Part shown: positions 4,901-25,176 of the stretch, piece by piece | Layout of the letters: each line of letters opens with the position of its first letter | Numbering within the stretch: the first letter of the stretch is position 1 | Origin: Hydra vulgaris | Lineage: Eukaryota; Cnidaria; Hydrozoa; Anthoathecata; Hydridae | NCBI RefSeq assembly: GCF_038396675.1 | Contig: NC_088920.1 | Coordinates: forward strand, 63,757,001 to 63,821,000 | DNA length: 64,000 bases | Direction of reading: 5' to 3' | Notes under the pieces: generated by a model | Told to the model about the DNA's origin: nothing | Seen by the model: only the letters and a program-made list of their open reading frames with translations | The model's database searches: none | Translations under genes and position numbers: made by a program

Positions 4901-7900
4901 TCATTGAGTACATTACCATTCATTAATATAGAAAGATCTAAATTATTGCGATAAGGATTGGCTGAAAAAAATTGAGCTTTTATCTGAATTAAAAATCACC
5001 AGCCACTGTGAGCCCCATGCTGTAGCAGAAGTGAGATCCTTTTCAAGCTCAAATGCCCCCTCCAAGCAATCAGAGAGTGTTGGCTTCTTATCATGACAAG
5101 AATAAATAGTAGTATCAGCAAACAATGCCACCTTAGGTGTGAGAATGTTTGAATCGTTTATGTAAATTAAAAGGAGTATAGGGCCAAGGATAGAACCTTG
5201 AGGAACCTCTGAAATTACAGAATAAGAAGAAGAGTGCTGTCCATCGAGGATAACTTTTATACAACGATTAAAAAGGAAGGATTCAACAATCTTAAAGATG
5301 TTATCAGATACATCTTAAGAAGAAAGTTAAGGAGAAGACCAGCATGCCAAACTTTATCAAAAGCTTTAGAAATGTTAATAGCAATAGCCTTAACCTCTCC
5401 ACCTCTGTCTAATGCACGATAAAATGTATCGGTTACTACTGTTAGCAAATCGGCAGTAGAACGAGAAGATAGGAATCCATATTGATGATCAGAAAGTAAG
5501 TTATTAGATTCAAGATAAGAAATTAAGTGTTTGTTAATTAAAGATTCAAAAACCTTGCTTATGATAGGATGAAGACTAATGGGACGGTAGTTAGACAAAT
5601 CAGATCGCTCTCCAGAATTTTTGAAAATACTGATAACAGATGCCGCTTTCCAGCAGGCTGGAAAACAAGACTCTGATAAGCACTTGTTGAATAGTTTTGA
5701 AAGTATAGACGACAGCCCCAGAGAGCACTTTAGCAAGACTATAACAAGTATGTTGTCTGGGCCACAGGCTGTAGAAGAGTCTAAGCAGGAAATCACTATA
5801 GATACAGAAGCTACAATTAGAATGTTGATTGCTTGACATGCTAATCAGAAGATACGAATGTCAAACAATGGATCAACCTGTTTGATGGCTAAATCAGGTA
5901 GAACGCAACTAGTGGAATCAAGAGATGATATTGATGAAAAGTTCTTAGAAAACAGTTCAGCTTTATCTTTAGGTGAAGTGATAAAGTCTGAACCATACAA
6001 GTGAGGTGGAATAACAGATTTGCCCTTATTATTGAAACTATTGAAGATTCTCCAGAAATCATGAGAGCCTAATTTTTGTGATGAAATACAAGATTTCATG
6101 ACCTGAGTATGGCGGGCTTTGGCGTTAGACAAAACCTTTTTACAATGGTTTCTTGCAGTAATAAACAGACGTCTGTTTTCTGGAGAATTGTTTTGCTAAG
6201 GAAAGTGAGTGGAAATTGCTGAGGAAAGTAAGTGGAAATTACAGTAGCACAATGTGAGGAAAACCATGGAAAAGTGTGAGGCTGGACCTGAAATCGTCAA
6301 GAGGGAATAAAAGATTCCATGCCACCCTAAATCCACTAAGTTATGTAAGAAGCGCATTTGTCAGCAGGAAGATGAAGGATTTCTACTTAAGGGCCATCAT
6401 GAAGATAATCATGGAAAGAGTACTCTTGGCGGATGTGACAGCTCCGATTTGCTTCACTCCCTTTCCGGCAATACTCTTTTGTGGCTTTTGTACAGTTGTA
6501 CAACCTGTCTCATCCACATTGCAAATATCTGTTGCAGTAAACCTGTGTTTTATTAGTACCGAATTCAGATTGTCGAAAAATAAATTCACATTATATCTCT
6601 TAAATCTAGTGGCATGACTCATCGATGTAGTTTCGGGCGTTTTTATTGAAAGCTCTTGTTTTCTTTATAAAAACTAAGAAAACCATTCTGCACCAGCATG
6701 CTCGTTCTTATCCCATGAAAGAGGAATTTTGCATTTAGTTTTTTTCGCATAACTGTAAACAAACTTTTGCACTTATGCATGAGTGAGGCCATAGTTAAAT
6801 TTAAACCACAAACCTCTTTGAATAACTAAATAAAAGAACTTTTAAAATGTTTAAGTTTTAAACGCACAACATTTTAAATATAGATTTGCAAAGAGTTGAA
6901 AACCATTTTTTTAAGAATTGTTCTTGGCTTGTGTTCAAAATAATAAAGAACAAACTACCGTCAACGAAGTGCGGTAGTAAGATTTAAATAAATGAAAACA
7001 CATACTAAGTAATAAGATCTTTGATTTAAACTCTAATTAAGTATGCCAGTATGGATAATTATAAAATAACAAAAATAATACATGAGCGATAATAGAAGGA
7101 ATATAATTGATGCCTTTAAACAGTGCATTCTTAAACAATTTAGTTAAGGTATCCCATGCATAAAACCCTATAAAAAGCACATTAAAAGAAAGCCCACAAA
7201 AAAAAATTACTTAGATGTTATCAAACTATTTTATTATCTTTTATGATACAAGATTACAATTAATAATACAAAAATCACAAAAAGTTACTTTCATGTGTAA
7301 AATTCTCTAAAATCTTTAGCAGCAACTTAATTTTTGCAATTTATTTTATCCAACAGCAAAGTAGTATGTATTTTAGTGCTTGAAACCTTCATTTCTTGTT
7401 TGTAATAATAAACTGCTCGCTAGTCAGCGCAAAAGTTCAATGTTTCAACTAACCCTGTGTTCCGACCTCGGTCTCCCTGACTAAAAGTGCCATATGAGAT
7501 ATGCATAAAATTGGTCGAATCAATTTAGAGATGAGTTCTTCTTTGCTATCAAACCAAAGGAGGACACTTAAAATATTAAATTTGTATTTTTTTATTTATT
7601 TTTTGTGTTCTAAATCTTAACTTGATCGAACTTTTATGTAGCTCATTTTATGATTATATAGTCATTTATTTATATCTTATCTTATTAATGTTGATTGTAT
7701 AGTAGGGTGCAGTGAATTTTAGTTTTTTTTACAATACATTTAGCCTGGGTGTGCAAAAGTTGTCTATTCATTTCAGAAATACTCTAGAAATATACCAATG
7801 CTCTAGGAAATTATCTTAAGGTGCCCCAAGACCTTTAAAATTTTAATGGGTCCCTAATATTATATTAAAAAAAGTTTTTCAAAAGTATGTCATGTTGGGT

Positions 7901-18960: not shown

Positions 18961-19488
18961 AAGACATATATGAATCATTTGCCTGGGGATATTCTCAGTT
19001 TTTGGTCCACCTTCTGAGACGAAATAAAATATGCTTTGCGTCTCAGAGAAACTGCTGATTTATTAATTATAAATAATGTCATATTAATAATAAATAATGT
19101 CATTTTATGTCGTGTAGCATACATCCATAAAGTACGTACATGTAAAACCATATATTTAAGACGCCCCCTTGAACGCACCTGAATACTTTCAAGGAAACCC
19201 CTTCCCCCTCCTCTGGGTACATACGCATTTTTTCTTTACAAAATTATTTACTCATAACTTGGAAAACATTAAAAACAAAATTTTTTTAGTTAACTCGATA
19301 TTTTTCTGTTACAGAACAGAAACGATGATATAATTAGTCATGCATTATTATTGCGCTAAACATCCGTGCAAAGTACAACGCAGAACTTCCATTATCATCA
19401 CTTTCTTTATTAAATAAGTTCTATAGAACTTATTTCATAAAGAAAGTTACTTTCATAATTAATTTATAGTATAATCAGGGGCGGATCT

Positions 19489-20105
19489 AGGGTACGTCTA
19501 ATACGTCTTAAGACGTACCCAAAAATATCAAAAATATAAATTATACTATATTCGATTATTAATTGAATTTTAAAAAAGTATATATCTTTTTTACTGAACT
19601 GTCAACTCAATAAGATTTAAGTACTACGCTTGCGTTTTACATTTACGGGCAATTGTGAAATAAAAATACCAATGGTTCTTGTTTAAAGCGATTTTTAAAA
19701 CGTATATAAAAATATCTTAACCGGAGGTTTAAGCAATTCTTGAAAAATAATATTTACCTAAACAGATTAATAGACGTACCCAATTTTATTTTAATATATA
19801 ATTAAAAATCTTTTTAAATTTTTATTTAGCTTGTTAAAAAAATAATTGAAAATTTTCTTTACTTATAACAATTTTTGGACGTACCTTAAACATAACACCC
19901 TTAATAAATTTTTGACGAAATCTATTGTTTTGCAATCATCAGGAGGTAAAAATAATAATAATTTTCTATAAGTGATAAAATACATCAAAAGATGTACCCA
20001 GTATTATTTCATTATATTATTTATCTTTATATTTAATTTAGTTTTCATTATTTATTTTTTAAATATTCTGTTTTTTTATAAAAAAAACACTGTCGGACGT
20101 ACCCT
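19489..20105. promoter_or_regulatory. Subterminal GACGTACCC motif array of the 5.1 kb hAT
   Basis: GACGTACC(C), in either orientation, occurs at about 19490, 19512, 19773, 19878 and 20097, and variants GATGTACCC at 19993 and at 24583 near the right end. Repeated short subterminal motifs are typical transposase binding sites in hAT elements. Binding itself is inference. Confidence 0.6.
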
Positions 20106-20208
20106 TGCACATACACCCTAATATACATACGAATAATTCAAAATATTCAAAATTTGTTTAATTTTAAATATTCAAGCATTAATTTGTCTGTCCGAGTATT
20201 AATTTAAA

Positions 20209-21076
20209 ATGTCAATCAATCAAGAAATTAAAAACATTATGTTACAAAATGATAAAACAAAATTGATTTCTTTGAAAGATATGTTAGAAAAAAATATTAG
20301 TTCTTGTAAAGATATTATTATTGTCGACTCTTGCAAAGCAGAAAAAACTCTTAAAATTTTTGAAATCTATCTTCCAAAAAGTTTTAAAGAAAAACATAAT
20401 GGCAATTTTGTTGTTTTAAGGTAAAGATGTTTGTTCAGGTTCCATAATTTTCTAAATAACTATTTGGTTAATTGTAATGTTATATTGACTGCTAGCTAGT
20501 TAAAAATATTTATAAATTTTTCATATAAATACATTAATTATTATATTTTATGTATATCTCAGGTCTCAATCAACTGGAAACTGTCTGTACAGTTCTATCT
20601 CCTTGTGTCTAACTGGAAATAACTGTATGGCTAATGATTTAAGATTACAGACCTCAATTGAATTATTCTTAAATGCCGAATTTTATTCTAATCATCCAAC
20701 TTTTCATAATGCTTTTGTTAATAATACTAGCTCTTTTCTATGCTTTGATAACATTCTTCCTTTATCAGTATCACTAAATTCTTTGGATTCAGGAAAAAAA
20801 ATTTTTAGATTTAGTTCAAGAAGAAGCTATTAATAATTGTAACAATGAAAACTGGTCTTCTTTCCTTTGTATTCTCGCATTATCAAGTGTTTGCAATAAG
20901 AAAATAGAATGTTTATATCCAGATTTTGGTCTACATAAGTTTAAAACTCATTCAGCTCTACTATTGTACCTCGTATAACCTCTTTAAACAATATTGAGTC
21001 TTTTTATCTCCTTTTTTGTTATGAAGGTGTTTTATATGATTTTTCTGCTCCTTTCCAACACAACCATTATACCCCT
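20209..21076 (+). pseudogene. OTU-like cysteine protease domain, N-terminal part of the hAT protein
   Basis: The frame starts at ATG 20209 (MSINQEIKNIMLQND). An apparent intron at 20421-20563 (gtaaag ... ctcag) keeps the frame and leads into TGNCLYSSISLCLTGNN, the catalytic-cysteine box of OTU proteases (usually D-G-N-C). The domain runs on through LRLQTSIELFLN and ends with NHYTPVI, which fits the closing catalytic His strand. OTU enzymes cleave ubiquitin chains. Frameshifts lie in an A-run near 20802 and near 20977. The usual Asp before GNC is Thr. After HYTPV the frame continues without a stop into the transposase, so both are one polypeptide. Confidence 0.75.
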
Positions 21077-23556
21077 GTGATAGTAAAAGAAAACTTAAAA
21101 CGAAAAATTTCAAATGAAAGCACCAAAATGTCGCAGACTAAAATAAAATTTTATTTCGAGGCCAAACATCAAGATAGTAGTCTTTTATTGGATAATATAA
21201 AAAGGAAACCAATGGAAGTCTCTACTCAACCACCATTATCATTATCAAAATTTAGTAAAATTACATGTTGTGAATCATTTTCTTTACCGTCCAATAATTA
21301 TGATATTGGTTATTTGGTTTCTAACTATACTAGTTATTCAAATGTTGCAAAAACCTTAAGTAATTCTGAACTTCAACATTTAGTTAAATCTGTTTTTGTA
21401 CCTTGTAAAACATATTCTTTTCCTAAAAATCTTAATGGGTGAAGTTTTCAATTTATGTGGATGGAAAAATTTCCATGGCTCACATATTCGAAAATATTTG
21501 ATGGAGCCTTCTGTTTGCCATGTGTACTTTTTGGGTGCAATTTTCCATCTGAATGTAGTTTAGTCAAAAGATTATTTAGTAAGCCTTTTGATCGCTGGAA
21601 TGAAGCTTCTCGTTACTTTCAGATACATGCATTTGGCAAAACCAATGATAGGTCTGTCTGCAGAAATAAAAGCTTACATGTAAAAACTGCTGAAGTTTTA
21701 TTTTCAATGTCGTCCATTTGGTCTTGTAAAACAGAATCAATAGATATTACATCTCAAAAAATAGTTCAATCACAGATTTCTAAAAACCGACAGTTATTAC
21801 AACCTATTATTGAAACAATTATTCTCTGTGGACGTCTTGGTCTTTCTTTACGAGGCCATAGAGATGATTCGGAGTTTCATCCTGAAAATGGTGAGTTTTC
21901 TATCATACTGTAGGTAATTTTATTGAATTGTTACATTTTCGTGTTAAAGCTGGTGATAAAGTTCTTGAAGATCATCTTAAATATCATCAACAAAATACAT
22001 CTTATATATCTAAGACATCACAAAATCAGTTAGTAAGGTGTTGTGGAGAAGTTATTACTGACACAATAATAGCAGAAATTAAAAATTCTAAATATTTTTC
22101 TATTATTGCTGATGAAGCTTCTGACAGTTCAAATAAAGAACAGCTATCATTAGTTATACGATTTGTTGATTCGAAGTTTAATATAAGAGAAGAATTTATC
22201 AGTTTTTTACATTGCACAAATGGTGTTACTGGTGAAGGATTATTTGATATTTTGTTAAAAAGTATTTCAGATTTTTCTTTAGATATCATGAATTGCCGAG
22301 GACAATATGATGGTGCTTGTCATATGATGGTGCTGGAGCAATGGCTGGTCATACCAAAGGATTGTCCTCTCGCATTTTAAATCTAAATGAAAAAGCTTCA
22401 TTTGTTCATTGCTATAGCCATAGGCTAAATTTAGCTATTTGTGCCTCGTGCAACGTACAATATGTTAAGAATCTTCTGACACATGTTAAAGAAGTATCAT
22501 ATTTTTTTAATCTTTCACCTACGAGACAACAAAAGTTAGAGGAGCATATCGAAAGTACTGTTCCATCGGCTGTTAAAAAAAAGTTTAAAGATGTTTGCAG
22601 GACACGTTGGGTGGAAAAAGTAAATGGATTAGACACTTTTCAAGAACTTTTTATTCCTTTGGTCTCTTGTCTTGAAGAGATGTCTTTAAATGTCAGTAAG
22701 AGTTTTAATCACTCAACATCTTCAAGTGCATCGTCTCTTCTGAAACTAATTACAGGTTTTGATTTTATTGTTGCTATGTGCATAACAAGAAATGTGTTTG
22801 ACTTAACTCTTCCCATAACGCGAATGTTGCAGTCAAAGAGTAATGATATTTCTGATGGTTTAAATCTTATTCAGGCGTTGAAAGATGTTGTATCTTCACT
22901 TAGAAATGTAGTTGATCAGCACCATCAAATGTGTTATGAACAGGCTTTAAAAATTGCACAAAATATTAATGTAGCCGAAACAAAGCCAAGAACTTCCTTT
23001 ATTTCCAAAAACAGAGATAATACACCTTCTGAATCTATTTCGGATTATTTTAAGTTTGTTATCACGGTTTGATGATACTACCTTAAAATGTTATAAAGCA
23101 CTTGTGCTAGTTCCTAGAAAAATGATTTCAGTAGTGCAATGTTCTCGTGACACCAGTTGGAAAGACTCCATCATATCTTTCAGTGACTTTTATGGAACAG
23201 ATTTACCGAATCCGCTTGCTTTGTCTGGTGAGCTTGATTTATGGGAAGCCTTCTGGTTAAATTTTAAAGGAGATATCCCTTCTAATATTTCTAAGACTTT
23301 AAAAGCGATAAATTTTCCTGGTTTTGAAAACATAAAAGTTTGTCTAAAGTTACTTGCTACCTTTCCATTAACTTCATGTGAATGTGAGCGGTCATTTTCT
23401 TCGCTTCGGCGCCTTAAAAATTACATGCGAAGCACCATGGTTCAGGACCGCCTAAATGGTTTAGCATTAATGAATATTCATACAGAGATAGTTATAGATA
23501 TAAAAAAAGTCATTGATAAGTTTGCTACTATTAATCGTAGATTAACTTTTAAATAA
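21077..23556 (+). pseudogene. hAT transposase (P52rIPK/ZMYM-like: DUF4371 core and hAT dimerisation end)
   Basis: Order: a basic start (KENLKRKISNESTKM, TKIKFYF), a TTF-type zinc-binding block (FPWLTYSKIFDGAFCLPCVLF), the DUF4371 region (SIIADEASDSSNKEQLSLVI), CRGQ-YDGAGAMAG with FVHCYSHRLNLA, RTRWVEKVNGLDTF, and the C-terminal dimerisation block (TSCECERSFSSLRRLKNYMR, RLNGLALMNIH). Breaks: a Trp-to-stop at about 21440, a 23-bp interruption at 21891-21913, a short duplication near 22310-22330 and a frameshift near 23065. The few breaks suggest recent loss of function. Confidence 0.9.
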
Positions 23557-25176
23557 AATTGAAATAAATATAAAATATATTTAAAAAAAATTTAAAAATA
23601 TAAAGTTTAAAAAAATACAAATTACTAAAAATAAAAACAGAACAAAAAAAGTCATCTTTATTTGCGACTGGTAAAAAAAAAACGGCTTTTTTCATAGCCA
23701 CAAATCTTTTTAAAACATTATTTGGCATAAAGAAATTATTGGCATACATCGCGTTACATACGTTGGTTTCAGATATATCGTTGTTGCTGTTATCATTCTT
23801 TGTAAATGCTATGTTGTTCTTTGTAAATGCTATGTTGTAATAATTATAGTGTAAACGTTTTTATTTTTTGAAGTTTTATGTATTATGCAAGTTTAAATAG
23901 AATAAAGATTTTAAAACTTACTTTTGCTATGCAAAATGTGAAACTAAGATTGCGGCATCTAATTTCTTTATATAAAATTCAATATTTATTATTATAATAA
24001 GTAATTATTTTGTTATATTTATATTTTTTATGTTTGTTACAATATAAACATAATATATAATTATTTATGATAAAAATATAAGATGTGTAAAATGTGTAAG
24101 ATTATAATTTAAAAATGGAATGTGAAAATATTAAGCTAATTTGTGAGTATAAATAAATCTAACTTGTCAAAATAAACAAATTTCTAAATTTTATGTAAAT
24201 ATACGATTTTACTATGGTAAGATGTCCTAGTAATATCCTTGCGTATTTTTTTTATAAATACAGAGTTGTCACTAGGGAAGAGCGGTGTCTAACCCCCCAC
24301 CCCCTACAAAAACTTTATTGAAAAATTAGTCAGCAAATTTAGACTTTTATTAGGCAAGTTTTTAACTATAGTCAGCAAATGTCAGTAAATGATGACTTTT
24401 TTTTTTTAGAAGTAACTCGGCAAAAACATACGTTATTCCCTCCCCCCCCCCTCCCTCCTTCTCCTTGAAGATCTTTTCGGAATGGCCCTGTGTATATATA
24501 TGGTGTATTAATCCTTCCCCTCCAACTCCGGAATTGTGTGTGTGTGGGGGGGGGGGGAGAAAAATTGCTCGTGGAAAAATCAGATGTACCCAAAAAATTT
24601 CCTGGATCCGCCCCTGGTATAATTATATATAGTCTAATTTTAGTAATTTTCATTATTAATGTAATCAAATTCATAGTTCAGGTAGATGCAGCAAAATCTG
24701 GAAAATTGTTACTTAAAAATGGCAAAATGTCACAAGTCATGCTGATATAGTATTTGATGAATGAGTTTACAGAAATGTGCAGAACACTTTAATGGAACTA
24801 TAATAGGTGTAAATAGTATTGGTGAACTTTAGAATGTGTTGTTTGCTTTATGATATATAATTTCAAAGAAAACATTCCATACATTATGAAAGCTGTTCCG
24901 TTATAAAAATTAATAGCAATTGGTCAGTAAAATGTGGTAAAAATTGGTAAAATGTGGTAAAATGTGGTAAGAATTAATAGCAATTGGTGAATAAAATGAC
25001 ATTATTTATTATTAATACGACAATGAGATTATTGAAACTTTAAATCTTTTTTTTAATAGTGGTTTCGTTGTGTGATGATTTATTATTACATGCATTAATC
25101 TATTGTGTGTCATAATCATGCAAGTAATATTTCTGTGTTAAATAAACTGTTACCATGATATAAAAATGGCTTTAAT

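Follow-up and report, generated by a model that had tools for sequence, protein, structure and literature searches.

OTU-like domains fused ahead of the transposase in divergent hAT transposon families of Hydra vulgaris

Fusions of an OTU-like domain to the N terminus of a hAT transposase are present in the divergent families A, A′, B, C, and D of the Hydra vulgaris genome. One copy lies in the window, by which the whole stretch of 64,000 nucleotides analysed here is meant (NC_088920.1, positions 63,757,001 to 63,821,000), and for which the original prediction had proposed an OTU-like cysteine protease domain passing directly into a hAT transposase within a single element with matching ends. 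These elements are read here as hAT transposons with an N-terminal domain of OTU ancestry that acts in cis as an atypical ubiquitin-cleaving enzyme, a reading to which a probability of roughly one half is given. The genome searched comprised 911.5 Mb in 15 contigs.

The single element with matching ends was found as predicted. It is bounded by the short terminal inverted repeats expected of the hAT superfamily, 16 bp long with 15 positions paired, and by GTATAAT on both sides (Table 1). Its left terminal inverted repeat could be recognised with two or fewer mismatches at 26 of 30 family-A loci (L009–L038, the window copy counted in). With gaps excluded, the element matches another genomic copy at 5,024 of 5,095 aligned bases (98.6%) and is therefore young. 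This copy of a cut-and-paste hAT transposon is no longer active. Flanking sequences were compared for the nine copies in which both ends are present: five have perfect abutting repeats of 5–7 bp (GTATAAT in the window, AGCTC at L011, GTTGGC at L053, ATATG at L055, and GTCCC at L057), one is placed inside an AT repeat (L056), and three show no flanking repeat (L013, L051, and L052). These candidate target-site duplications of 5–7 bp appear to differ from the classical 8-bp hAT duplication. Copies at L018, L023, L026, L041, L043, L044, L056, and L058 are located in AT-repeat tracts, and the position of these eight copies suggests that AT repeats are a target of the hAT elements carrying the OTU-like domain.

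Table 1. Features of the hAT element in the window; positions are counted from the first letter of the window
Feature	Position	Strand	Basis or remark
Left flanking direct repeat GTATAAT, candidate 7-bp target-site duplication	19469..19475	.	identical to 24617-24623
hAT element	19476-24616		5,141 bp
Left terminal inverted repeat CAGGGGCGGATCTAGG	19476..19491	+	15/16 bases pair with right end
Exon 1, 70 codons + 2 bases, ATG start	20209..20420	+	frame intact to its end in 16/26 family-A loci
Intron GT...AG, splits codon after second base	20421..20562	+	sequence
OTU-like domain	20563..21100	+	Pfam OTU E = 4.1e-5 for the copy at L018, and two alignments
Cys codon of TGNCLYSSIS box	20582-20584	+	within exon 2
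His codon of NHYTPV strand	21065-21067	+	within OTU-like domain
Variable linker, approximate borders	21101..21380	+	16-25% amino acid identity among families, against 33-44% in the domain
hAT transposase part, approximate left border	21381..23556	+	DUF4371, Dimer_Tnp_hAT, and comparison with another copy
In-frame TGA	21440-21442	+	window copy, in the transposase part, alongside further frameshifts
DUF4371 match	21910..22326	+	E = 5.5e-18
Dimer_Tnp_hAT (PF05699) match	23347..23487	+	E = 3.5e-7
Right terminal inverted repeat CCTGGATCCGCCCCTG	24601..24616	+	pairs with left end
Right flanking direct repeat GTATAAT	24617..24623	.	abuts right end of element

The gene layout first proposed has to be revised in that a first exon and an intron precede the OTU-like box. 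A comparable first exon was also seen upstream of the domain in the one copy each of families B, C, and D that was read, where it ends in Leu-Arg or Leu-Lys and is followed by an intron with a GT donor and an AG acceptor in the same phase as in family A. At L034, one of the 16 loci with an intact first exon among the 26 of family A, this exon remains in frame but the GT donor has been lost. From the sequence, splicing of the transposase transcript is predicted. The second exon is long and opens with the OTU-like domain, in which both the TGNCLYSSIS box and the NHYTPV strand named in the original prediction are present. The hAT transposase placed downstream of it was likewise recovered, through matches to DUF4371 and Dimer_Tnp_hAT that reach E = 7.3e-23 and E = 2.4e-9, respectively, at the family-C locus L040. 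In the window copy the OTU-like domain is interrupted by two frameshifts, and because the long exon contains several frameshifts and one TGA, this copy is unable to make the protein.

Further copies were gathered using the domain fragment of the window as a query, and the best 150 of 467 candidates were scored. Among the matches listed, some were near-identical to the window fragment and carried long open frames. The direct passage of one frame from the domain into the transposase, which is broken in the window, holds in copies of families A, B, and C, where both parts are covered by single open frames. Read from stop to stop, these comprise 1,016 and 1,022 codons in family A (L011 and L013), 1,046 codons in family B (L039, which stops about 40 residues short of the usual C terminus), and 1,094 and 1,092 codons in family C (L040 and L041). 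Since families A–C were found through the domain, as was A′, its presence in them cannot count as independent evidence. Family D was reached through the transposase region, and at both of its loci that were opened (L061 and L062) the domain is present, with the two parts in one frame as far as they were read, up to the transposase core.

When the best 150 matches to the DUF4371 region were examined, 89 had an OTU-like match 0.5–6 kb upstream on the same strand, against 0 of 750 shifted controls, and the spacing between domain and DUF4371 was similar across these 89 places (median, 1,481 bp). Such upstream matches accompanied 41 of 43 DUF4371 matches with at least 85% identity, 19 of 31 with 65–84%, 21 of 28 with 55–64%, and 8 of 48 with less than 55%. 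A missing upstream match at the remaining 61 places may reflect the limit of 150 matches on each of the two lists or the fragmentary state of many copies, and the two places that were opened, both of family D, make for a weak test of whether relatives carry the transposase without the domain. The idea that DUF4371 matches lacking an upstream OTU-like match represent families devoid of the domain is contradicted at both: L061 (C2:48695673) has a more diverged domain, and L062 has the domain too. A large domesticated gene was also considered at L062 and was dropped because the very long frame there proved to be the product of a run of N.

A profile search, one of the checks proposed with the original prediction, linked the N-terminal domain remotely to the OTU family. 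Intact copies were used because the window fragment taken alone gave only E = 0.16 with Pfam OTU and E = 0.12 with OTUD5. The family-A domain from L018 matched Pfam OTU (PF02338) with 24.5 bits (E = 4.1e-5), above the curated cut-off of 23.3. Matches below the cut-off were obtained for A′ (E = 8.9e-4) and for two C copies (E = 1.3e-3 and 3e-3), and marginal ones for D (E = 0.065, with a 637-amino acid stretch) and for a full-length C protein (E = 0.029); the weaker matches in A′, C, and D begin at the same box as that in family A. Neither of two family-B copies matched Pfam OTU, and neither did two roughly reversed decoy sequences match Pfam. PDB profile searches with two alignments returned OTUD1 and OTUD5 at E = 0.15–0.64 only, and the Ginger-like OTUs of the same genome gave a weak profile-profile match (E = 0.0033, probability 9.7%). 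With Pfam OTU as the query, a six-frame search through the entire genome listed 37 places, all of them different from those found with the domain fragment. A scan of viral contigs with the domain profile gave 35 pattern matches and no relative. A possible link to the vertebrate protein vertnin was also considered; the open-access literature search turned up nothing on it. On these profile matches, an OTU ancestry of the domain, within the papain-like cysteine proteases, is likely, and strongly so, though it would be a remote one.

The active site was compared across 30 non-identical sequences of the domain whose frame is open (17 from A, 1 from A′, 6 from B, 5 from C, and 1 from D), drawn from 34 of 62 loci, the rest being broken, partial, or of another kind; most of the 30 trace back to loci that the domain itself had retrieved, and only sequences with an open frame qualified. 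The two catalytic residues that had been proposed are conserved in this set: the Cys lies in a GNC or GSC box in all 30, and the His at the start of the late strand is present in 29, with a Tyr in its place in one A copy. Asn stands immediately ahead of this position in every sequence. Canonical OTU motifs have an Asp before GNC and an Asp or Asn two residues after the His. Here, T, A, N, or S but never D precedes GNC/GSC (0/30), and T or V but never D or N stands two residues after the His (0/30); with the Asp of DGNC and the residue after the His both replaced throughout, the standard acid is missing. The Ginger-like OTUs of the same genome, in contrast, keep DGNC and HYD, both of which the hAT domain is without (seven Ginger-like sequences compared). 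What the hAT families present is an OTU-like active site lacking the usual acids; a deubiquitinase function is a plausible hypothesis, of which the missing acids are the specific weak point.

Selection on the fusion was assessed by comparing family A with A′, and the claim made here is drawn solely from that pair. The domain gave dN/dS values of 0.32 (183 codons, L051; Fisher p = 1.6e-6) and 0.30 (169 codons, L056; Fisher p = 8.1e-7), both significantly below 1, the transposase core 0.17 and 0.16 in other A′ copies (L053 and L054), and the linker with its adjoining region 0.34. The domain is therefore under purifying selection between A and A′, and the transposase likewise, so that conservation of the fusion under selection, a check proposed with the original prediction, is supported. 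Within families the ratios were higher, ranging from 0.42 to 2.1 in B and C pairs and standing at 0.97 for a pair of A′ copies, values that would follow from the decay of young copies. Between the larger families dS is about 1.4–1.6, and these comparisons were left out of the selection claim. Amino acid identity among A, B, C, and D, with one copy taken per family, is 33–44% in the domain, 16–25% in the linker, and 43–50% in the transposase; the domain is somewhat less tightly conserved than the transposase. Given the purifying selection and the identity across families, the domain has been carried with the transposase since before the split of A to D.

Excision and insertion are carried out by the C-terminal two thirds of the transposase, as is established for the hAT superfamily. 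The N-terminal domain would work in cis on the transposase complex, built on its Cys-His pair, as an atypical enzyme that cleaves ubiquitin or a ubiquitin-like protein. It may trim ubiquitin off the transposase itself, or off repair or chromatin proteins where transposition takes place, with the third catalytic residue supplied from a non-standard place or dispensable. Because the acids are missing, it is nearly as likely that a domain of OTU ancestry persists which has lost its enzymatic activity and gives the transposase a module that binds ubiquitin or another protein or has a structural role. The loss of both canonical acidic positions in 30 of 30 sequences and the greater change tolerated in the domain (dN/dS of about 0.3 against 0.16–0.17 in the transposase core) speak for such a non-enzymatic role, whereas all sequences keep the Cys and nearly all keep the His even though the families are only 33–44% identical, and dead cysteine proteases usually lose their catalytic Cys or His.

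That the resemblance to OTU arose by chance, in a region with no relation to it at the N terminus of this hAT clade, is improbable. The two B copies without a Pfam match, the absence of these places from the genome-wide Pfam list, and the weakness of the PDB and profile-profile matches are what would be seen under a chance resemblance; against it stand the family-A match over the cut-off, the weaker matches of A′, C, and D from the same starting box, and the two rough reversed decoys without a match. Less credible still is an annotation artefact in which separate genes or nested elements lie side by side. Frames are indeed broken between the parts in the window copy, but single frames of more than 1,000 codons, similar spacing in 89 of 150 places, and the same layout from A to D oppose this, and for the copies that were read the open frames and shared layout refute it. 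A bolder version of cis-acting ubiquitin cleavage would make the domain a separate old OTU clade, with Cys and His kept and both acids gone, that is an obligatory ubiquitin protease of a whole hAT lineage and was captured separately from the Ginger1 and Helitron OTUs; this seems unlikely on present sequences. If it were true, transposons of three unrelated mechanisms would have converged on ubiquitin-cutting domains.

Ubiquitin-protease-type domains have been described on two other kinds of transposon. Ginger1 transposases, most diverse in Hydra, bear an OTU or Ulp1 domain at their C terminus for which a role in repair after transposition has been proposed, according to Bao, Kapitonov and Jurka 2010 (PMC2836005). 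As in the hAT families, a cut-and-paste transposase is fused there to a cysteine protease domain, but the Ginger1 transposase is of the Gypsy-integrase type and its OTU is C-terminal, whereas the fusion reported here joins a hAT transposase to an N-terminal domain. Eight loci of this genome (L001–L008) are repeated elements with a Gypsy-type integrase and a C-terminal OTU (DGNC, HYD), very like Hydra Ginger1; the OTU match lies at 1501-1815 of each, and they rank first to eighth among Pfam OTU matches in the genome, with E down to 3.1e-11. Helitrons and Helentrons carry OTU or VTD domains, of which VTD is reported to be active and the OTUs of viruses and transposons were yet to be assayed, as stated by Hermanns et al. 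2022 (PMC9741609). They resemble the hAT families as mobile elements with a ubiquitin-protease-type domain in the main protein and differ as rolling-circle Rep/helicase elements whose VTD belongs to another protease family. In the Giant Transposons paper, OTU is mentioned once, for Helentrons (PMC6431247).

Known Hydra hAT elements are built differently. In the paper describing it, from which the term OTU is absent, hATx-6 has an N-terminal BED finger, a 674-amino acid frame, and an 8-bp duplication, and a TATATATA duplication is depicted for hATm-3 (PMC8721813). The hAT dimerisation domain is shared with the present families, several of whose copies also sit in AT repeats; hATx-6 is unlike them in its 8-bp duplication, against clear repeats of 5–7 bp here, and in having a BED finger in place of an OTU-like domain. 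A search of open-access literature by title or abstract, in which the longer result lists were seen in part, found no OTU-hAT fusion; Repbase Reports, the expected place for Hydra hAT families, lay outside this search and may record it.

The OTU-hAT fusion extends the known theme of OTU-bearing transposons to a third transposon superfamily. OTU or Ulp1 on Ginger1 and OTU or VTD on Helitrons had already suggested a role of ubiquitin in transposition, and this idea is strengthened because a third, mechanistically unrelated superfamily shares the habit. The families with open frames in the Hydra vulgaris genome offer a system in which the effect of losing the Cys could be tested directly.

Two further observations concern other repeats. 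On the minus strand at L043, a 275-codon frame inside a family-C copy resembles a mariner-type transposase by eye and is probably a nested insertion. On contig C8, near 12.9, 52.2–54.2, and 57.9 Mb, seven partial matches to the domain were seen with 78–81% identity and short open frames, all beginning at query residue 38 or 39, which looks like local amplification of one piece of the domain within a different repeat.
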